Origin: a virus
DNA length: 38,876 nt
Virus record (IMG/VR): IMGVR_UViG_3300023198_001644
Location: 1-38,876 of that record
Reading direction: 5' to 3' (one strand)
Both the position numbers and the translations under genes were made by a program. Position 1 is the stretch's first letter, and each line of letters starts with the position of its first letter. Below are positions 20,508 to 38,876 of the stretch, in pieces. The notes beneath the pieces were generated by a model. It made no database searches and was not told where the DNA came from. It worked only from the letters and a program-made list of their open reading frames with translations.

Positions 20508-21374
20508 CTACAGGATGCCGCTCCAAAAGCTCTTTTCTGTTTTCTGAGTATCCGTTCCGCCTTCGCCTTCGACGCTCTTGGACGGCATCCTCGTGTCCTC
20601 GATTTTCTCGACTCTTTCGCCAAGACTTTTTGTGGTTTCCTGGACGCCCGAAACCACCGCCTCGATTTTCCCCGTCAACTCTTCCAACGCTTTCGCGATG
20701 GGAACCGAGCTTGCGCCGTACATCGCGCCCTTGGGCGTGCTTACCGGCGGGGAAGCACCCACGGCGATTTCCATCATCCCCAATTCCTTTGCGAGACCGG
20801 TGAGAGCTTCCAGCGCGGCCTTGAACGCTTTTTCGCGCTTGGGCGTGAAGCGCTTCGCCTTCTCGACCGCGAGCGCGAGCGCGCCCAGCGTTTTCTCCAC
20901 GTCGGCTTCCGTGTCGGCGGCATCCGCTTCGGCGGCATCCGCTTCGGCGTTGTCGTCCTTCTGTACTTCCTGATCGCCTTCCGCCGGTTTTGCCTCGGTT
21001 CCTTCCGCCTTCTCCGTGGGCTTTTCCTCAACGTCGCCGTCGGCGGACTTCTCAACCGATTTTTCACCGGCGTTCGAAGCGCTTTCCGCGACCTTGGAAA
21101 TGTTCCCGATCATCGCGGATACCTGCTCCATGGCGGCCACGATGGCCGCATCATTCGACTTCTGGACTTCGACGGGAACCCTCTCGGGAGACGTGTCCTT
21201 TTGGGCGTTCTCTTCGCCCGCATTCTTTTTCACGTTATCGTCGGCCATTTCGCCTACCTCCTCAGTTGTTAAATTTTTGATTACCACGAATTCTTGTTCG
21301 TTGGCGCCGTTGTCTACGAGCGAAACTTCGTTTACATCCAACTCAACGAACCGTTGCTTTGCTTTGTTTCCCAT
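20508..21374 (-). CDS. Scaffold-like protein carrying the protease C-terminal SLVD motif
   Basis: 288 residues. It begins VELDVNEVSLVDNGANEQEF, the sequence that normally closes the protease domain of XkdF-type enzymes. Then follows a long charged Ala/Glu-rich coiled region with repeats of AEADAAEADAAD, typical of scaffolds. Residues from about 200 contain a further helix. The end is EKSFWSGIL. The gene overlaps the protease stop by one base (TAATG), so the two are translated together. It lies directly before the capsid gene. It probably guides head assembly and is cleaved by the protease; this is inferred from family patterns. Confidence 0.75.
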   Translation of the reverse strand: MGNKAKQRFVELDVNEVSLVDNGANEQEFVVIKNLTTEEVGEMADDNVKKNAGEENAQKDTSPERVPVEVQKSNDAAIVAAMEQVSAMIGNISKVAESASNAGEKSVEKSADGDVEEKPTEKAEGTEAKPAEGDQEVQKDDNAEADAAEADAADTEADVEKTLGALALAVEKAKRFTPKREKAFKAALEALTGLAKELGMMEIAVGASPPVSTPKGAMYGASSVPIAKALEELTGKIEAVVSGVQETTKSLGERVEKIEDTRMPSKSVEGEGGTDTQKTEKSFWSGIL

Positions 21375-21955
21375 TACGCAGCCTTGTCGCTTACCTTTTT
21401 GGCTCTCGCCTTACCGCCGATAGAGAAGCCCTTTATTTTAGCGGCCTTCACCAACTTCCAAATCTTTCGATCCCCCACGTAAACAGTCATCACCCAAGAA
21501 CCCGCTTTGACGGTAGTTCCGTTTATCACCACGTCTTGCGGCGCTATCCACGATTGATAAAGTTCGAATTTGTATTTGCCGAAGATTTTGTGCATGAAAC
21601 CGAGTTTCGTAGCTTTATTGTACTTCGACAAGAAATTATGGGCGGCTTTTCGAATTACTTCGGCGCTCATAATGTCGCCCTGCGCATCTACAACTTCCGG
21701 TTGCAGAACGACACCGGTGACCGTTTGTTCCTCGATGTTGGCTTTAAGCAACGGTACGAAAATGTTCTTCGTAACGCTCTTTTCGTCTTCTTCCTCTTTT
21801 TTATCCATCAGTTCTTTCAAACCGCTTCCGACGGATGCAGGCTTCTTCTTACCCGACTCGGCTAAATCGGCGGCGCCTATCTGCTTGGTGGATGTAACGC
21901 GCTTCCCCTTTTCGTCGGATGGTATTGCTTTTCGCGGTTTTCCTGGCATCGTCAA
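21374..21955 (-). CDS. Prohead maturation protease, XkdF-like
   Basis: 193 residues. A basic, disordered N-terminus leads to a clear XkdF/Peptidase_U35_2 core: VTGVVLQPEVVDAQGDIMSA, EVIRKAAHNFL, KLGFMHKIFGKYKFELYQ, SWIAPQDVVING, TTVKAGSWVMTVYVGDRKIW and IKGFSIGGKA. The catalytic His is probably H120 of GFMH and the Ser lies in GFSIGG. The family usually continues into a SLVD stretch, which here opens the next gene. TTG 21955 is well spaced from GAGGTG; ATG 21949 is also possible. It processes scaffold and capsid proteins. Confidence 0.85.
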   Translation of the reverse strand: MTMPGKPRKAIPSDEKGKRVTSTKQIGAADLAESGKKKPASVGSGLKELMDKKEEEDEKSVTKNIFVPLLKANIEEQTVTGVVLQPEVVDAQGDIMSAEVIRKAAHNFLSKYNKATKLGFMHKIFGKYKFELYQSWIAPQDVVINGTTVKAGSWVMTVYVGDRKIWKLVKAAKIKGFSIGGKARAKKVSDKAA

Positions 21956-24984: not shown

Positions 24985-26442
24985 CTATAACAATCCCGGT
25001 TCTTTTCGTCTGGACCGGCGCTTCTTTAGTTTACTCGCTCTCACCGCTAAATCAAGAGCGTCGAACAAATCCTTGTATCGATAGTTCGGAAACAAAACAA
25101 GTTGTTCGATGAATAAATGTATATTCCCCCCCTTTTTGAAAAACATCTTACCGTCTTCGAAAAGAGGAGACAACTTCCACGCCCTTGTTATTTTGTCCTT
25201 ATCTTGGTTGATAGGCTTTAACCTTATGTCGGAATCGTACGAATCTTTGAGATGCTGATATTGAGCTTTCTGATACGCATTCGTTTCTATACAACAGCGA
25301 ATAGGCTTCCACCGTTCGTAGAATTCAACAATCGATTTTGTTTGGTCTCCAAATCGCGCTTGCTTTTCGAGAAAATCAAGAACATACCGATTTTTGCTAC
25401 TATCCATTCCGATAACACAGATTGCGAATTTGTCGCCGGTCTCCTTTTCCGTAATAGCCAAATCTACGCCCATGAAAATCTGTAAACCTGACGGCATATT
25501 GTCACGGTCTATCACCTGACAATGGTCAAATTGGAATATCTCGCCTTCCATCGCCTTCGTGTCGCATTGGTATTGCGCGTTGAAGATGATGATGCCGGAT
25601 TTCTTCTTCTTCTTCAAGAACCATTCCGGCGTGTATTTTTCAGGCCACGGACTTCTTCCCTTTTCATCCAACGCCGCGATGATATGGTGGTCATTTTCTA
25701 ATTCATTAGCGATAAGATGACCATACAAATCATCGTAATGGTAGCGGGTTCCCAGCCTGTGGTGCTCGCCGCGATGTTCCATTTCGTCCGGCGGTTCCAA
25801 GGTCGGATCTAACGTCTGATAGTACCATGTTCTTATCTTGTCTCGCTGGTGTTGCGTACGGGAGTTGTCTTCGTCTACAAGGTCATCGCTTATGATGATA
25901 TCGTAGTGTTTGCCGACAACCTGGGAGAGAACGCCCGTAGTGGTGACGCTCGCTTCTTTCGCCTTCAGCGTTCTCGGCAACACCTCGATTTCGCTATTGT
26001 CCCATTTTTTTACCAAGCGCGGATCGTAATACGGTCCGAAAATCTCCGTCAACAATTCATTGTCCTCGAACTGCGCTTTGATTTCCTTCAAGAACGCTTC
26101 GGCCGCGCTCGATGTTTTGGAGACGATGAGAATCCTCAAATTAGGATTCTTCAGAAGGTAATGTATAGTCTTGGTTATCGTACAAACGGTGGATTTCCCG
26201 GCGCCGCGAAATGCTAACTGTAAGCTGTCGGGGTGTACGAACTGATATTTCATCATGGATAAATGGAACGGTTGTGCTTGGTACCCTAGCACTTCCGTAG
26301 CCAATATATCAATTCGATTATTCTTTAAGACTTGGCGCTTAATCCATTCATTTCTGATTTTATTGCAATGGTCAAGCGCATGCGTAAGTTCGCTACGTTC
26401 CGCCTTGTCTAGGTTCTTGGTAATCGGTACGACAGACCCCAT
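24985..26442 (-). CDS. terL: Terminase large subunit
   Basis: 485 residues. Walker A is FRGAGKST (K83). Walker B is YDIIISDDLVDED with D186 and D187. The coupling/arginine-rich segment follows. The C-terminal RNase-H-like nuclease opens with FMGVDLAITEKETGDKFA (D327) and continues with CIETNAYQ and a C-terminal DALDLAVR motif. It packages and cuts phage DNA with the portal. It precedes the portal by 15 bases. The start at ATG 26442 has no strong ribosome site, but upstream frame closes nearby. Confidence 0.95.
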   Translation of the reverse strand: MGSVVPITKNLDKAERSELTHALDHCNKIRNEWIKRQVLKNNRIDILATEVLGYQAQPFHLSMMKYQFVHPDSLQLAFRGAGKSTVCTITKTIHYLLKNPNLRILIVSKTSSAAEAFLKEIKAQFEDNELLTEIFGPYYDPRLVKKWDNSEIEVLPRTLKAKEASVTTTGVLSQVVGKHYDIIISDDLVDEDNSRTQHQRDKIRTWYYQTLDPTLEPPDEMEHRGEHHRLGTRYHYDDLYGHLIANELENDHHIIAALDEKGRSPWPEKYTPEWFLKKKKKSGIIIFNAQYQCDTKAMEGEIFQFDHCQVIDRDNMPSGLQIFMGVDLAITEKETGDKFAICVIGMDSSKNRYVLDFLEKQARFGDQTKSIVEFYERWKPIRCCIETNAYQKAQYQHLKDSYDSDIRLKPINQDKDKITRAWKLSPLFEDGKMFFKKGGNIHLFIEQLVLFPNYRYKDLFDALDLAVRASKLKKRRSRRKEPGLL

Positions 26443-30478: not shown

Positions 30479-30847
30479 TTATTTCGTTCTCCCTTTCGCG
30501 CACGCTTCCATGAGCGCTTTGCAAATATCCTCCGTGTCTACGGGTTTACTCAATACTTGAACGCCCGGACACGTTACGCCGATAGTTCCTGTTTGCACTA
30601 CCACCGGCAAATCGGTCGATTGGACTACGCGGTATCCGCTGCCTTCGCTCGGGCAATCCCAATCGGTCAACACTGCGTCGAAACCTCCGGACTTTATCGC
30701 CTCGACTCCTTCATCGGCGGAAAACGCCAACGTAACGCTTTTCCATTTCCGTCGCAACGTTCTTTTCAGCATCCTTGCGACGCATTCTTCGTCGTCCACA
30801 ACGAGCAAATTAAGCTCAGCGCTATTCACTTTCGTCTCGTCAAACAT
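30479..30847 (-). CDS. Stand-alone response-regulator receiver (REC) domain protein
   Basis: 122 residues, a complete REC fold without any output domain. The acidic pair is D18/D19 (LLVVDDEE), the phospho-acceptor is D62 in AVLTDWDCP, the switch Thr is T86 in VVVQTGT, and the Lys is K101 in VLSKP. All key residues of the CheY/Spo0F fold are present, so it could be phosphorylated by a host histidine kinase. It is preceded by GGGGAGAGAAG. The phage gene cluster makes it a likely modulator of host two-component signalling; this is inference. Confidence 0.85.
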   Translation of the reverse strand: MFDETKVNSAELNLLVVDDEECVARMLKRTLRRKWKSVTLAFSADEGVEAIKSGGFDAVLTDWDCPSEGSGYRVVQSTDLPVVVQTGTIGVTCPGVQVLSKPVDTEDICKALMEACAKGRTK

Positions 30848-30869: not shown

Positions 30870-31049
30870 TTAGCTGATAGTTTCGGGCGCGGTGATTACG
30901 GTTGCCTGAGGATTTGAAATCGGCGGCGGCGCATAGCTGCTTAAAGAAGTCGCTTTGGTGTAGACCGGTTCCCCGAAGAATGTCCCGCGCAACACCATCG
31001 GGACGCCATTCATATATTTGATTTTCTCGAAATTTGTTTCGGTATTCAT
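30870..31049 (-). CDS. Small 59-residue leader-position protein
   Basis: ATG at 31049 directly follows promoter module A and its GGGGAGAACGAAA ribosome site. It opens 59 codons to TAA (30872..30870), with an aromatic N-terminal half (YMNGVPMVLRGTFFGEPVY) and a Ser/Pro-rich C-terminus. The position right after a repeated promoter and before the receiver gene argues for a real gene. No family recognised. Confidence 0.65.
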   Translation of the reverse strand: MNTETNFEKIKYMNGVPMVLRGTFFGEPVYTKATSLSSYAPPPISNPQATVITAPETIS

Positions 31050-31156
31050 TTTCGTTCTCCCCTTCGAAGGGCGCCTATTCCCTTCGTCTATATTATAAGT
31101 ATAAGGCTTGTCGAATGTAAGTAAAGGAGAAAATCATACTAAGTACAATATTTTTT
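31050..31156 (-). promoter_or_regulatory. Promoter/leader module A
   Basis: One of four copies of a conserved module. -35 TTTACT at 31125..31120, 16-base spacer, -10 TATACT at 31103..31098. Upstream lies the conserved ATGATTTTCTCC segment and a TTGTACTTAG box. The leader contains the hairpin CGAAGGG/CCCTTCG (31086..31080 with 31071..31065) just before GGGGAGAACGAAA. It drives the 59-residue gene and probably the receiver-ligase operon. Confidence 0.75.
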
Positions 31157-31157
31157 G

Positions 31158-32047: not shown

Positions 32048-32155
32048 CGTTCGTTCTCCTTTTCCGGGTTTCCCCTTCGCCTATTTATAAGTATAACTCT
32101 TGCCGCGTGGAAGTAAAGAAGAAAATCACATTAAATACATCTTTTATTGTAAGTA
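32048..32155 (-). promoter_or_regulatory. Promoter/leader module B
   Basis: -35 TTTACT at 32117..32112, 16-base spacer, -10 TATACT at 32095..32090. Upstream TGTGATTTTCTTC and TGTATTTAATG boxes match modules A, C and D. The leader has GGGGAAACCC followed by GGAAAAGGAGAACG. It drives the 77-residue gene and its two followers. Confidence 0.75.
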
Positions 32156-32504: not shown

Positions 32505-32594
32505 TTTCGTTCTCCTTTTCGGCGTTTCCGCCGGTTGCCCGTTGCGGACGTTTTGGCCGTCCGCCTGCCTTTCGTTTCGAAGTAGCTATGTCAT
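32505..32594 (-). promoter_or_regulatory. Structured leader with two-codon ORF
   Basis: Directly after the module C ribosome site (AAGGAGAACGAAA) the first frame reads ATG ACA TAG (32594..32586), then stops. It is followed by hairpins GCGGACG/CGTCCGC with a 7-base loop and CGGCG-GAAA-CGCCG, then a second copy of AAGGAGAACGAAA before the 112-residue gene. The arrangement could be an attenuator or a decayed gene. No proof of either. Confidence 0.4.
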
Positions 32595-32705
32595 TTTCGT
32601 TCTCCTTTTCTTTCCGGGTTTCCCCTTCGCCTAACTATAACATAGCTCTTTGTAAGGCGGAAGTAAAGGAGAAAATCACACTAACTACAATATATTTTGT
32701 AATAG
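32595..32705 (-). promoter_or_regulatory. Promoter/leader module C
   Basis: -35 TTTACT at 32667..32662, 17-base spacer, -10 TATGTT at 32644..32639. Upstream TGTGATTTTCTCC and TTGTAGTTAG boxes match modules A, B and D. A very A/T-rich upstream stretch (32690-32745) could act as an UP element. The leader holds GGGGAAACCC and ends AAGGAGAACG. It drives the two-codon leader and the 112-residue gene. Confidence 0.75.
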
Positions 32706-33614: not shown

Positions 33615-34280
33615 TTATTCTACTTCTTTTTTTCTTTTTACCACGCGGCGCCCTTTTCTCACCTTGTCTCTTCTTTTTGATCTCTTCTTTTTCCCGCTTT
33701 CCTTCTCCTCAACGGCTACATCCGTTTCTGGATTAAGCACCGCTTCTGGAATCCCGCGCCCGCGATGTGTATTTCCAGGAGTCACATCTATTATATCCGA
33801 TTCTCCATATTTGGATATCATTTCGTTGAGTCCGCCCAAAGCGCCTGTGATTTCTTTCTTGAGTTCCTTGTTCGTAAGGTTGGCGATTACCAGGCCAGCC
33901 ACCATCTCATTTCTGTTCGGGACTTTTTTGATGAGACCGAATTCCTGTCCGCGCGTTATCAACTTGTCTCTGATTTCGCTTCGCGCGCGTATCGCCCCTA
34001 CAAGAGCTGTTGCTTGTTTGGTCTTGCGATAATTCGCGATGATGTCGTCAAGCGCCGATATATTGCGAAGTTGGTCTATCATGTATTCTACGTACACGTG
34101 TTCGATAGGCTTGGAACGAACTTCATCGGTCTTCACTTCGAACATCGCGACTTTGAGGCTTTCGTATTCGGTCGCCGTCAACCCCATGTCGTCCAAGATG
34201 TCGCTTTCGTCTTCCCCGGAACAAAGCAACCCGTAGACTTGTAAAACCGCTTCTCTCATCTGTTCTTTAGTCAGCTTCAT
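33615..34280 (-). CDS. Possible small terminase-like DNA-binding protein
   Basis: 221 residues from ATG 34280 with AAAGGGGAATA before it; the longer open frame (to 34406) lies inside the deaminase gene. N-terminal QMREAVLQVYGLLCSGEDES then DILDDMGLTATEYESLK looks like a helix-turn-helix. A helical core (RARSEIRDKLITRGQEFGLI) and a very basic C-terminus (KKKRSKRRDKVRKGRRVVKR) follow. TerS-like proteins of some phages share this layout, but it is 7 kb from terL, so this is only a candidate. Confidence 0.5.
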   Translation of the reverse strand: MKLTKEQMREAVLQVYGLLCSGEDESDILDDMGLTATEYESLKVAMFEVKTDEVRSKPIEHVYVEYMIDQLRNISALDDIIANYRKTKQATALVGAIRARSEIRDKLITRGQEFGLIKKVPNRNEMVAGLVIANLTNKELKKEITGALGGLNEMISKYGESDIIDVTPGNTHRGRGIPEAVLNPETDVAVEEKESGKKKRSKRRDKVRKGRRVVKRKKEVE

Positions 34281-34992
34281 TATTCCCCTTTTCGTCTGCC
34301 GATTCAAATACAATACGCTCTGTACGTATGCCGGCATTTTCGAATATGTCGGCGGCGAGTTCATCGTGATAGTCTTCCATGTAACAAACTTTTTCGACGC
34401 CGCCAAGTTGTATCAAGCGTTTGGCACACATCTTACACGGATACGTTGTCGTGAACACAGTCTTCGGCGTTATCGCGGGTTCCGAACACGAGATGGCCGC
34501 GTTCTCTTCTGCGTGTAAACAGCCGCAAGCTCCGGACACTTCCGGTTCGTCGCAGCAATTAGGTAGCCCTGCGGCGTTTCCGTTGTATCCCGACGATAAG
34601 ACGCGCCGGAAGTCGCTGGAAACAATAACGCAGCCTATTTTGCGCCTAGAACACGTAGAACGCTTGGCAATTATCACCGCCAATTGCATATGGACTTCGG
34701 CGAACGACGGACGGCCCGCGATATTCGGCAAGCCATCGTTTATTGTGATCCCTATCGCATCCAACGCGTCGTAAGCTTCGTCAAGCTCGGGTTCGCGTTT
34801 CGGTATCAGCGCGCGCGGCGGCGGTTTCAGTCGTTCCGTCGGAACGAACATCGCCCTGCCTTGTGGAATTGGTCTCGGAGCGGGTTCTGTCTCCGCATCG
34901 GCGCCGCAAGCGGGACAGGTATGTAATTCGCTTTTTCGCCCGCTGATGTATCCGCACGTACACTCACCGCTGTAGTAGTTGAATGTGTTCAC
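34267..34992 (-). CDS. dCMP deaminase with N-terminal zinc ribbon
   Basis: 241 residues. The catalytic core is clear: AEVHMQLAVIIAKRSTCSRR, RKIGCVIV, SSGYNGNAAGLPNC, CLHAEENA (H160, E162) and YPCKMC (C186, C189). It converts dCMP to dUMP for thymidine synthesis. A zinc ribbon (CTCGY..., CPACG) precedes it, joined by a Pro-rich linker. GTG 34992 overlaps the stop of the upstream small gene and has GCGAGG before it. The frame also runs to ATG 35067, but that start has no ribosome site. Confidence 0.85.
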   Translation of the reverse strand: MNTFNYYSGECTCGYISGRKSELHTCPACGADAETEPAPRPIPQGRAMFVPTERLKPPPRALIPKREPELDEAYDALDAIGITINDGLPNIAGRPSFAEVHMQLAVIIAKRSTCSRRKIGCVIVSSDFRRVLSSGYNGNAAGLPNCCDEPEVSGACGCLHAEENAAISCSEPAITPKTVFTTTYPCKMCAKRLIQLGGVEKVCYMEDYHDELAADIFENAGIRTERIVFESADEKGNNEAD

Positions 34993-35168
34993 CACCACCT
35001 CGCTTTCGGCGGCGATGAGGATGATCGCCCGTAAAACGCCCGCGCCTCGATTCGCGAGCGATACCATTTATAACCGTACCAAGGGATTATGCGTTCGTAC
35101 CATTTCGGCCGTACGGCATATTGCTCGCCAGCCATTTTGTGTTGCCAAAAATTGAAAAGCGGAAACAT
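34989..35168 (-). CDS. Small aromatic-rich protein, 59 residues
   Basis: ATG 35168 opens 59 codons to TGA (34991..34989), overlapping the GTG start of the deaminase. The sequence MFPLFNFWQHKMAGEQYAVR and PKWYERIIPWYGYKWYRSRI is very rich in Trp, Tyr and Arg. TAGG lies seven bases before the ATG, and the gene follows the caspase stop by eight bases. It looks real but has no recognised family. Confidence 0.5.
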   Translation of the reverse strand: MFPLFNFWQHKMAGEQYAVRPKWYERIIPWYGYKWYRSRIEARAFYGRSSSSPPKARWW

Positions 35169-35176
35169 CGTTTTGC

Positions 35177-35920
35177 CTATTTTACCACTTCCAATTGCGG
35201 CACTTGATCGAAACCGGACGCCACGAGCTTGGTTCGCACTCTCTTCAGCAACTTATGTCGAAGAATGTTCGGGTCATCTCGAAGGCAACTCGCCCAAAAA
35301 TACGTAAATGCCCCGTTGTATTTTCCGCCCAGCCACGCGTCGGAGGACAACTGATCGTCAGCGCATCCGGCCCACAACACGCTGTTCGGCGTTCGTCCGT
35401 GGACTGCTCGGCGCATCCTCCGAACAGGAAGTTTCATATCGACATGCGGAGAGATGATGTGCTTAGCTTCTCCCGATGGAGTCGTCCGCAAAGCTGTTCC
35501 CGAGTGACAGCTGTCGAGAAGCACTTCGATGTAGGCGTCTTCGGGAACGCCCTGTAATATAATCGCCAAATCGTCATCGGTAATGTAACGACCGGCGCCC
35601 CAATTCATGTTGTGCGGACAAATCAGCTCGTCTTTTCTGTCCGCCTCGTCGCCGTCTTTATCGGCGACTTGCGACCCGTGGCCTGAGAAATGGAAGAAGC
35701 CGATGTCGCCCTTCGCCAATCGCCCGACCAAAGCGTGAAGCTGTGTAATGATGTTAGCCATTGTAGCTTCTCCGTCCTTGAGAACGACGATTTCGTTTGG
35801 ACGATACCCCAAGATGTCTACCAATATCCCGTTCGCGTTGTCGACATCGTTACAACAACCGCGAAGGTTGTTGCCATTTTCGTACTCGTTAACACCAACG
35901 AGTAATGCTGCGTTAGTCAT
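35177..35920 (-). CDS. Caspase-like peptidase (metacaspase type, C14)
   Basis: 247 residues with the full p20 core: LLVGVNEYENGNNLRGCCND, IGFFHFSGHGSQ (catalytic H81), the loop DGDEADRKDELICPHN, YITDDDLA and IEVLLDSCHSGTA (catalytic C138). An acidic loop of that type normally binds Arg/Lys at P1. A p10-like part (VLWAGCADDQLSSDAW, YNGAFTYFWASCL) follows. It is a cysteine protease with trypsin-like specificity in this family. AAAGGGGACAAA precedes the start. It lies 12 bases after a lipoprotein gene, so the two are one unit. Its role in phage biology is unknown. Confidence 0.9.
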   Translation of the reverse strand: MTNAALLVGVNEYENGNNLRGCCNDVDNANGILVDILGYRPNEIVVLKDGEATMANIITQLHALVGRLAKGDIGFFHFSGHGSQVADKDGDEADRKDELICPHNMNWGAGRYITDDDLAIILQGVPEDAYIEVLLDSCHSGTALRTTPSGEAKHIISPHVDMKLPVRRMRRAVHGRTPNSVLWAGCADDQLSSDAWLGGKYNGAFTYFWASCLRDDPNILRHKLLKRVRTKLVASGFDQVPQLEVVK

Positions 35921-35932
35921 TTTGTCCCCTTT

Positions 35933-36310
35933 CTATTCTTCTATCCCGAAACATCCGGCGGTCGCCGGACACGACGCCGCCGTCTCCAAACATCCAAAAT
36001 TGAGTTGCTCGTTCGGAAGCTCCGCGTAAATTGCTACGAGACTTTCGCATCGCTCGCCGCAACCTTCGCCTTCGAGTTGTTTGCCGACCGGAAGCGCTTT
36101 CATCACCACCGAAACGCAATCGGTAAACGCAAACCCGGAACACGCCCTCTCGCACTCCGTATCCAATTCCGTTCCAGGCGGTTCTTCCGTATCGACCGGC
36201 CCGACTACCTCTGTATCGTCGCCGGTCTGCGTGGTTCCGCCACCATTGTCGAAGAAACCGCCGCAACCGTTACACCCAATACAGAAAACCATCAACATAA
36301 TCCACTTCAT
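35933..36310 (-). CDS. Cys-rich lipoprotein
   Basis: 125 residues from ATG 36310 with GGAGCAAAGA before it; an earlier ATG (36337) is less likely. Signal peptide MKWIMLMVFCIGC with probable lipidation at C13, a Gly-rich segment, an acidic Thr/Glu/Pro linker (TQTGDDTEVVGPVDTEEPPG) and a Cys-rich domain with CERACSG, CGERCES and CPATAGC. It should be exported and anchored to a membrane. It directly precedes the caspase gene. A role in superinfection exclusion or host-envelope change is possible, but no family is recognised. Confidence 0.7.
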   Translation of the reverse strand: MKWIMLMVFCIGCNGCGGFFDNGGGTTQTGDDTEVVGPVDTEEPPGTELDTECERACSGFAFTDCVSVVMKALPVGKQLEGEGCGERCESLVAIYAELPNEQLNFGCLETAASCPATAGCFGIEE

Positions 36311-36559
36311 TCTTTGCTCCTTTCGCCCCAGCCGCACCCACTATGCCGTTAGTCAGCATCTCCTAATACTACCGTATTATTTTTCAATTCGTGGGTACAA
36401 TCATTTAATAAGCATATTTGGCCGCCGGTTACGAACGAGCGACATCGTTCTCGTACCGTCCTTCTTTCTTCGGGAAGGAGAACGACGCTCTCCAGATACT
36501 CCTTAGGAGCGTAACGCCCTAAACACCTGGGAACTTACTTATTGGCTTGACGCTATGTT

Positions 36560-36588
36560 ATCGAGACTAAGCTTAACTTAGTCTCGAT
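36560..36588. other. Perfect 12-bp inverted repeat
   Basis: ATCGAGACTAAG and CTTAGTCTCGAT are exact reverse complements around a 5-base loop (CTTAA). No T-run follows on either strand, so a terminator is not supported. It may be an operator or a structural RNA element. It is the strongest hairpin in the noncoding region. Confidence 0.6.
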
Positions 36589-36865
36589 ATTTGCTCGTCT
36601 TATATGCGAAGCATGTGCTTGCGAATTCGACAAGGGAAGAAATACCACGATTACTTTCCCTAGAAAAATGCCCACCCCTTAAACGAGCGCTGGGAACTCT
36701 TCTTCGCCCTGTAAATTCCCTCGTGCCGTAATTGGTTATCTGTGCGCTTGGTGTTATTTGTGTTACCCCTCTTAGGGATAATTGACACTCTTGGTTCTTG
36801 TAACTACATAGCCTTGTGGGTTTGGAGTGAAATGTTTTCTTGCGGTTTGTTTACCGGTTACCTTT

Positions 36866-37018
36866 GGTGCATTATTGGTGCATTGTATAGCATGGTCCGG
36901 TTCGTGTCGTCTTCAGTTCTGCAGTTCCGTCGTCTTGGGTTCTGTCGTCGTGGGTTCCGTCGTCGTGTCGTCGCGTCGTGGAAGCGTGGACTCTATTGGT
37001 GCATTATTGGTGCATTAT
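36866..37018 (+). repeat. Iteron-like GGTGCATTAT repeats (two pairs)
   Basis: Four near-identical decamers lie at 36866, 36877, 36998 and 37009 (the second is GGTGCATTGT). Members of each pair are 11 bases apart, one helical turn, and the pairs are 132 bases apart. Another copy lies on the minus strand at 38228-38238. The spacing fits binding sites of an initiator or other dimeric DNA-binding protein. Confidence 0.75.
36922..36966 (+). repeat. Three tandem 15-bp repeats
   Basis: Units at 36922, 36937 and 36952, consensus GGGTTCYGTCGTCKT, followed by further GTCGTC runs. They lie between the two pairs of GGTGCATTAT repeats. Repeats plus iterons together resemble a replication origin. Confidence 0.6.
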
Positions 37019-37284
37019 AATAACCGCCCTCCCTGTGGTGGCACGGATTCGGCGGCACCCAGACATACCACGAAAATTCCACAAGGCGGCCGGTTCCTCC
37101 ACCAGTACCGGGGGCCAGCGCACGCCACCATGACCAAACGACATAGTACCAACACTATGCAGACCAAGCATCTACATCTCAGACATTACAAGACCGCAAG
37201 CCCGCTCTCTACGTTATAGCCTACACGCTCTCTTGTAGCGTTACAGAGCGCTGGCAACGGCGAGCTTCCTGCAACGTCGAAGTA

Positions 37285-37376
37285 CCACGTGGAAGCGCCT
37301 GGTATCCCTGGACGCTCGCCTGCTAGACAACGTAATGCATGAGGGGTCACGTGACGGTTTGACGATCCACGTGGAT
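37285..37376. repeat. Three CACGTG palindromes
   Basis: CCACGTGG at 37285-37292, GTCACGTGAC at 37346-37355 and ATCCACGTGGAT at 37365-37376. All share the CACGTG core. A wider inverted repeat TGGTATCC/GGATACCA also flanks them (37300-37307 with 37373-37380). They could be protein-binding sites. Confidence 0.5.
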
Positions 37377-37861
37377 ACCAGATGGTACACCTGATACTAC
37401 ATGCGCCATAGGTCGAAGCGCAAGCAAGGCAATCCCCAACATCACACAGTCACGACATAATCGCCACGGGGCACGCCACAACGACACAGCTACACCCGAT
37501 TTTCCCTATACATAAGCATTATCCAGAGGACGTTCTCTTCTTCTTTACCTTCTCAGACTGTGAATAGGGGAGTTACAGAGAGACTATTAGGGCGTTCTTA
37601 CTTACTCTTTACTCTATTATACATATCCTTCTCTCTTAAGCCTATACGCTTATGTCTCCTTCCTTTCCTAGGGTTTCTGGGGGTATATGGTACAATCTCC
37701 TTCTTTCTTTTGTTTCTCCAGCGTTTCGGATTTCTCTTTCTTTGATCTGATCACGCGTGGTGGGATTGATAGGGCTGGTTGGTCTGGTTATGGGTGGTGA
37801 GTGGAAATCCCCCTAGGGCTCCTATCTCCCCTATATGGTTGCTTGGTTCTTGGATGAGCTT

Positions 37862-37895
37862 ATGTAGTTAGGTTATTCCTGTTCGCTAACTACAT
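37862..37895. repeat. Inverted repeat of the promoter box TGTAGTTAG
   Basis: ATGTAGTTAG (37862-37871) and CTAACTACAT (37886-37895) are exact reverse complements. The same TGTAGTTAG box stands upstream of the -35 in modules C and D, and in variant form in A and B. A regulator that binds this box would have a two-site operator here. Confidence 0.5.
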
Positions 37896-38161
37896 TATAC
37901 ATAGGCTTATACGTCTATCCGTATGAGCGGTGTAAGTAGGTGCCTTAGGACGTTCGCGTTGGTCTCCCTTATACGTACGTAACGCTGTTTGGCGCTCTAT
38001 GGCGTTATGGTTGGGGTTTCCCTCGATTACCCTACAGGGTCGCGCCTTACACTACTCATAATCTCTTTACGAAAGGCGGACATAATACATTTCGATTACT
38101 CTTTTGCTTAGGCATACTACCTCTATCGGGCTCCTGGGAAGAACTTCTTTTTGCGGTCTGT

Positions 38162-38219
38162 CTCTCTTTAGGGGTTTTCCTATCCATTCCCCTCTTTTGT
38201 CTTTCTTCCAGCGTTTTAG
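38162..38219. repeat. 58-bp direct repeat, copy 1
   Basis: Begins CTCTCTTTAGGGG and ends CCAGCGTTTTAG. The second copy at 38692-38750 is identical except for one extra G in the G-run. A weaker third version is near 37715-37735 (CTCCAGCGTTTCGG). The function is unknown. Confidence 0.8.
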
Positions 38220-38253
38220 GATATGGGATAATGCACCAGGTGGGCAGACTTGA

Positions 38254-38490
38254 TCAATATACGTATAACGTCCCCAAGCTAACTTCTATCGAATATGAGG
38301 GCAGCATTTCGTCGAGTTCATCTTCTAATTTCAAAGTCGACAACAAACTTTTTTTCGAAATCAAAAACAAATTATCCAACGTTGGATTATATATCATTAT
38401 TTCCCTTACGGCCGTACTGGTTACAAGACTAATTAATTGACGACGCGTTACATTTCTAGTCTCTTTTCGAGATAATTCAAAAGTACTCAT
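38254..38490 (-). CDS. Hypothetical 78-residue protein, only gene after module D
   Basis: ATG 38490 follows the module D ribosome site AAGGAGAACGAAA. The sequence MSTFELSRKETRNVTRRQLI then LVTSTAVREIMIYNPTLDNL and KLEDELDEMLPSYSIEVSLG suggests a small helix-rich protein. No family recognised. It is followed by a long noncoding region, so it seems to be transcribed alone. A regulatory or host-takeover role is a guess only. Confidence 0.65.
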   Translation of the reverse strand: MSTFELSRKETRNVTRRQLISLVTSTAVREIMIYNPTLDNLFLISKKSLLSTLKLEDELDEMLPSYSIEVSLGTLYVY

Positions 38491-38600
38491 TTTCGTTCTC
38501 CTTTTCTTTCCGGGGTTTCCCCTCGCCTATTTATAACATAACTCTTTGTAGCGTGGAAGTAAAGGAGAAAATCACACTAACTACAACTTTTATTGCTTCT
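38491..38600 (-). promoter_or_regulatory. Promoter/leader module D
   Basis: -35 TTTACT at 38563..38558, 17-base spacer, -10 TATGTT at 38540..38535. Upstream TGTGATTTTCTCC and TTGTAGTTAG boxes are shared with modules A, B and C. The leader has the hairpin GGGG-AAA-CCCC (38522..38512) before AAGGAGAACG. It drives the 78-residue gene. Confidence 0.78.
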
Positions 38601-38876
38601 TACCCAAAAACGACATAATATTAACAGAGCTACACAACTGGCGACTTCGACTTACAAGACGCTTCTGGGATACTTCCCTTATCGGGCTATCCTCTCTTTA
38701 GGGGGTTTTCCTATCCATTCCCCTCTTTTGTCTTTCTTCCAGCGTTTTAGCTCCTTGCTTGTCTCCCTTCGTATCGGTTATAAAGTTCATTAAATTTATG
38801 GTGCTTTTCAATGAGTTCTTTCCACGTGATTCTTCGACTTACAGGGTGTTACAACGGCGGGCTCTATGTAAAAAAC
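38601..38876. other. Noncoding right end
   Basis: No supported gene. It contains copy 2 of the 58-base repeat. A startless minus-strand frame (38747-38848) reads RRITWKELIEKHHKFNELYN and looks protein-like, but an in-frame stop precedes it and no start is present. It may be a decayed gene or chance. Confidence 0.4.
38692..38750. repeat. 58-bp direct repeat, copy 2
   Basis: Same sequence as 38162-38219 with one additional G in the G-run (GGGGG instead of GGGG). The copies flank the promoter D gene cassette (38254-38490) on both sides, 530 bases apart, so recombination between them could delete it. Confidence 0.8.

Follow-up and report, generated by a model that had tools for sequence, protein, structure and literature searches.

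Metacaspases have been linked to regulated death in plants, fungi and protists, and bacteria use caspase-like proteases to defend themselves against phages. Metacaspases, including those of giant viruses, are already known; a stand-alone set in large tailed phages, for which we found no description in the open-access literature, seems to be undescribed. The member considered here lies in a window of 38,876 bases, the whole stretch of DNA analysed and an entire IMG/VR virus record. It shares its fold, catalytic dyad, Arg/Lys S1 pocket and p20 and p10 parts with the eukaryotic type I metacaspases (Mca1, PDB 4f6o; Candida glabrata, 7qp0; T. brucei MCA2, 4afr), but differs from them in having no N-terminal prodomain, in carrying Arg145 in place of Asp220 of T. 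brucei MCA2 (TbMCA2) and in being encoded by a tailed virus. Archaea and bacteria also have small, single-domain C14 enzymes that stand alone (Methanomicrobiales L011, L041 and L032; Geobacter GSU0716, PDB 3bij). Those from Methanomicrobiales have Arg or Lys at the same Ca2+ ligand and are the closest in the tree, although all these enzymes are cellular and only about 34% identical to that of the window. Giant-virus metacaspases (fadolivirus, clandestinovirus, medusavirus and others) are virus-encoded and the best structural matches among viral proteins, but come from viruses of eukaryotes, an unrelated viral lineage. P2-like prophages (L023, L024, L026 and L030) also carry caspase-family genes, placed within their tail region; the products are longer (about 450–540 aa), with a long C-terminal part, and distant in sequence. 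An initial annotation of the locus had drawn parallels with TPR-CHAT of type III-E CRISPR and with the gasdermin proteases, likewise clan CD cysteine proteases found in anti-phage systems. The window metacaspase belongs with neither: TPR-CHAT is of another family with other domains, no TPR or CHAT match was obtained with Pfam and, at the sequence level, no gasdermin-like gene lies beside it, the adjacent 125-aa ORF having no match in Pfam, PHROGs, NCBIfam or PADLOC.

Searches with PHROGs and Pfam recognised a large terminase (TerL; 24985–26442), portal, minor head protein, head maturation protease, major capsid-like virion protein, tail sheath, tape measure and baseplate hub in the window, together with DNA ligase, dCMP deaminase and HNH nuclease. 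This gene content is that of a contractile-tailed virus of bacteria or archaea. Neither an integrase nor an endolysin could be recognised in the window proteins scanned, and the window has no tRNA or Rfam match. All called genes are oriented leftward. The metacaspase and the Cys-rich ORF upstream of it follow an ORF-poor stretch (36.3–38.25 kb) and head a block that runs into the dCMP deaminase and a terS-like gene. The features of this region are as follows:

35177–35920, minus strand: stand-alone type I-like metacaspase (p20 and p10), 247 aa, from Pfam, PDB, AlphaFold2 (AF2) and Foldseek
35926–35932, minus strand: Shine–Dalgarno sequence AAAGGGG of the metacaspase
35678–35680, minus strand: codon of catalytic His81 (FHFSGHGS), a His aligned in all members
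35507–35509, minus strand: codon of catalytic Cys138 (LLDSCHSG), a Cys in 42/42 phage loci, the window and L014
35399–35482, minus strand: disordered basic p20–p10 linker, residues 147–174, pLDDT below 50
35933–36310, minus strand: Cys-rich lipoprotein-like ORF, probably exported, 125 aa with 11 Cys, no relative found
36317–36323, minus strand: Shine–Dalgarno sequence AAAGGAG of the lipoprotein-like ORF
36559–36589, minus strand: 14-bp perfect hairpin, 5' of both genes, fold z-score −7.75
34267–35067, minus strand: dCMP deaminase (phrog_174, E = 6e-42), kept in L053–L056
33615–34280, minus strand: conserved terS-like gene, with a homologue in the related record L107 that immediately follows a metacaspase and precedes TerL

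The hairpin, a possible terminator or operator, is absent from the fetched portions of four related viruses, and sigma-70 matches 5' of the two genes are not above chance. Approximately 2 kb with few convincing genes (36340–38250) adjoins an exact 49-bp direct repeat (38171–38219 and 38702–38750). A leader repeat of about 100 nt (38483–38595, 32591–32690, 32050–32149 and 31042–31157), also matched in related viruses, precedes four other units or early genes (starts near 38490, 32504, 32047 and 31049) and is not present before the Cys-rich ORF and metacaspase. Elsewhere in the window, a stand-alone response-regulator receiver domain (30479–30847) is kept in 4/4 relatives.

The metacaspase, which starts with ATG, matches Pfam PF00656 (Peptidase_C14) over residues 4–244 with E = 1.2e-26, which excludes a chance match, and PDB metacaspases match it with E-values down to 3e-31. 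This single C14 domain spans the whole protein; many cellular C14 proteins have sensor or effector domains fused to it, and this one has none. The AF2 model (16 aligned sequences as input) has a pLDDT of 84 and a pTM of 0.84. In a Foldseek search of the PDB the first 29 matches are metacaspases or Geobacter GSU0716, followed by MALT1 and caspases. The dyad of an SGHG His and a D-x-C-H-S-G Cys is present on the caspase fold, and a p10 half follows p20: the Pfam match extends to residue 244, the region aligns with the p10 of Mca1 and MCA2, and modelled strands and helices continue to residue 245. The Arg/Lys S1 pocket of TbMCA2 is made of Cys92, Asp95, Ser156 and Asp211 (PMC4357240), and alignment places C22, D25, S79 and D136 of the window enzyme at these positions, giving a complete acidic pocket. 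The initial annotation, which had read the gene as a phage caspase-like peptidase with complete catalytic His and Cys and an acidic S1-type loop, is thus borne out by the C14 match in a record with tailed-virus genes, by His81 and Cys138 in the contexts described, and by D25 and D136 in the TbMCA2-equivalent pocket.

The Ca2+ ligands D173, D189 and D190 of TbMCA2 are retained as D97, D115 and D116, while D220 is replaced by R145. We do not treat the four-Asp site as defining for prokaryotic members, because its loss is typical of those compared here. The p20–p10 linker is a candidate autoprocessing site, with seven Lys or Arg in residues 146–178 against 19 in the remaining 214. The gene resembles the rest of the genome in codon usage (z −0.7), so it is a resident gene. 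Judged from sequence, this is a genuine and probably active peptidase of family C14B; fold, dyad, S1 pocket and p10 half are all present in sequence and model, and neither predicts a signal peptide or membrane anchor. We infer that the enzyme would work alone in the cytosol, cutting after Arg or Lys, and would mature by self-cleavage in its basic linker. With Arg145 as the fourth ligand, it would probably not need Ca2+, unlike the yeast and trypanosome enzymes.

Single-sequence scans of viral data with either protein yielded no matches, and profile scans were needed to find relatives of the metacaspase. Among 50,697 GenBank phages just one, LR745208 (485 kb), encodes a relative at E ≤ 1e-5, and profile scans of IMG/VR yielded 42 tabulated metacaspase contigs (5–485 kb, a few of them near-copies) plus one truncated copy. 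Stand-alone metacaspases are thus encoded by approximately 43 viral contigs, mostly of large phages; TerL was detected in 10 of the 26 large records tested with one Pfam model. PHROGs matches to the window enzyme are weak and unnamed. When its model was compared with BFVD, nearly all matches at E ≤ 0.001 were caspases of giant viruses and other eukaryotic viruses, the first tailed-phage entry being weak (E = 3e-3).

An alignment of all members has the catalytic Cys and His in every one, and the S1 residues in nearly all, the exceptions being three fragments and one Ala for Ser79. A hydrophobic C-terminal tail anchor is predicted in 18/42 phage metacaspases (L008, L009/L074, L016/L079, L020/L080, L075–L085 and L088–L092). 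The position of TbMCA2 Asp220 is D, E or N in 18/18 tail-anchored enzymes and R or K in 22/24 without an anchor; the window enzyme, with Arg145 at this fourth ligand, is of the soluble type. The tail-anchored enzymes cluster in the tree, with one soluble member nested among them, so the link between anchor and Ca2+ site is a property of a clade and does not represent independent events. In cyanobacteria, too, a metacaspase has been reported to bear a C-terminal anchor (PMC3501461). Genes beside or near phage metacaspases include an L,D-transpeptidase-like gene (L016:7602–7964, a weak match below the Pfam cut-off), a C92 amidase (L098:6888–7478) and a mechanosensitive-channel-like protein (L111:4958–5308).

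The window enzyme falls outside this main phage clade. A PMSF tree groups it with stand-alone enzymes from Methanomicrobiales MAGs (support 98/91), as does a larger quick tree (support 91) in which the main phage clade excludes it; bacterial stand-alone metacaspases are poorly sampled in the tree, by plasmid proteins only. The phage copies may therefore differ in role. The window TerL has relatives in archaeal-phylum genomes (L113 and L114), with 43–45% identity in G289 and 33–38% in G184 (on a 176-kb contig), whereas the best GenBank phage TerL found is about 31% identical. An archaeal host, which would also suit the tree, is therefore possible on TerL similarity, bacterial phyla lying outside that comparison.

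The upstream ORF begins with ATG at 36310 and ends 12 nt before the metacaspase start. It has 21 acidic and five basic residues, no basic residue between 3 and 54, and a Gly/Thr/acidic linker (residues 17–52) with zero Lys or Arg. Its lipobox is F-C-I-G/C, with Cys at −3; MKWIMLMVFCIG/C fits a relaxed box and fails the strict PROSITE-type pattern, so ‘lipoprotein’ is probable rather than sure. No relative was detectable among the 50,697 phage records, in IMG/VR or in 18 related records, although short, fast-evolving proteins of this kind can escape homology searches. The AF2 model of the ORF is unusable (pLDDT 45). The initial annotation had placed a lipoprotein 12 bases upstream of the peptidase: the gap stands, and the lipoprotein identity is probable.

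The same annotation had taken the two genes for a functional pair, with the lipoprotein as membrane partner or as a substrate cut after Arg or Lys. The short gap and the separate ribosome-binding sites fit such a module, the two genes probably sharing one transcript, and unrelated lipoprotein genes likewise lie immediately upstream of, or close to, the metacaspases of L095, L022 and L007. Pursuing its suggestion to look for the pair in other genomes, we found no conserved pairing: a homologous lipoprotein lies beside the metacaspase in 0/15 metacaspase records (14 other viral and one archaeal MAG) and is present in 0/4 virus relatives, one of which (L054) has an unalignable lipoprotein and no caspase. 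Membrane or lipoprotein genes in general flank 6/22 soluble phage metacaspases against a null of 3.3 (P = 0.07, from crude gene calls), and 2/13 in the new sample alone (null 1.5). A first count of 9/13 (P = 0.0016) was an artefact of tail anchors and one false lipobox, and the clustering failed in this cleaner count on a larger sample. The products would be expected on opposite sides of the membrane, and cleavage of the lipoprotein is unlikely because its linker lacks Lys and Arg and the protease lacks an export signal. A two-component module is the least probable reading that we weighed, and a highly unlikely one; the Cys-rich lipoprotein would instead be a separate accessory product of the same transcript, neither conserved partner nor substrate.

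Four relatives of the virus emerged when TerL and dCMP deaminase were used as queries (L052/L053, which are one contig, L054, L055 and L056), some of the records being fragments. All lack both metacaspase and lipoprotein. The dCMP deaminase is a conserved downstream border, upstream of which the relatives vary, so the window pair sits in an accessory slot. In L052/L053 (TerL 83%) the slot contains one gene for an HTH protein and one for an Acb2/Tad1 hairpin protein (L053:4974–5309; PF24729, E = 1.4e-10, above the Pfam cut-off) and no caspase; the hairpin domain is characteristic of cyclic-nucleotide sponges that counter CBASS and Thoeris. The slot of L054 (4960–5969) is taken up by a cysteine peptidase of C39 type and a lipoprotein of 64 aa, which has a good lipobox and could not be aligned to the window ORF as a homologue; here, too, a cysteine protease lies near a lipoprotein. 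In L055 the slot is filled by small membrane proteins, DUF5658 among them, and in L056 by an HTH-like gene, assigned by eye. In a more distant record, L107 (91.7 kb; TerL 49%, terS-like 27%), a separate metacaspase takes the equivalent position, immediately ahead of the terS-like gene.

What favours a host-directed accessory role is the slot itself, the patchy occurrence of the gene and the fact that the nearest relative has an Acb2/Tad1 gene there. Our tentative reading, which we hold with something less than even confidence, is an accessory host-directed protease, with counter-defence first. As a virus-made effector it would act in the infected cell to inactivate host proteins, the likeliest targets being those of defence or stress responses, and its gene sits at a position that related viruses give over to other small accessory genes, including one of Acb2/Tad1 type. 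Against counter-defence, the Acb2 link consists of one homologous slot and one close neighbour (in L022, two genes after the metacaspase); in two other metacaspase-bearing records Acb2 lies at a distance, and the majority lack it. Taken over all records, the association with Acb2 was weak (3/32 metacaspase records, one adjacent only) and was set aside.

Other observations point to lysis instead. In L107 (5588–7524) a holin gene (PHROG match, E = 1e-6) overlaps the metacaspase start codon by one base (TGATG), just before the terS-like gene and TerL, and in L095 a lipoprotein precedes the metacaspase and a holin-like gene and two lipoproteins follow it. A helper in lysis or host death, made late with envelope-acting proteins and dismantling the host, for example when switched on at membrane opening, would also suit the C-terminal anchor and retained Ca2+ site of 18/42 phage metacaspases, the lipoprotein or membrane genes that fill the slot in L054 and L055, and the window itself, where an endolysin is recognised nowhere else. 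The window genes, however, head a nucleotide-metabolism block and are not among late genes, the flanking of soluble members by membrane or lipoprotein genes is not significant, and the window enzyme lacks both the anchor and one Ca2+ ligand. We regard this role as rather unlikely for the window, and place counter-defence, the most likely reading, slightly ahead of it.

Protection of the infected cell from competing phages, by the metacaspase, the lipoprotein or both, would make the locus a superinfection-exclusion or virus-borne defence system. The PADLOC generic caspase model matches the metacaspase (E = 4e-17), P2-like prophages carry larger caspases as cargo, and receptors are blocked by small phage lipoproteins that contain Cys, T5 Llp being an example. 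The P2-type enzymes are nevertheless distant and longer (≤36% identity over part of the query), and no sensor domain, toxic effector partner or lysogeny gene was recognised in the window, which makes this explanation improbable. Phages also use proteases for head maturation, and several phage metacaspases adjoin fibre-like genes (L008, L012 and L015). Yet the window already has a head maturation protease (21374–21955), and the metacaspase lies away from the structural genes and is missing in close relatives whose virion genes are the same; processing of the virion or tail fibres is thus very unlikely.

Returning to counter-defence by a host-directed protease, we propose, again tentatively, that tailed phages may carry widespread, undescribed stand-alone metacaspases, comprising a tail-anchored clade with the Ca2+ site and a soluble set without it, whose task would be to cripple host defence or bring about host death. 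The window would be a small-genome member in an accessory slot common to anti-defence genes. Recurrent and partly membrane-anchored, phage metacaspases offer a way to ask whether phages turn a host-type death protease on the host, and include small, soluble, easily expressed enzymes for testing that question.
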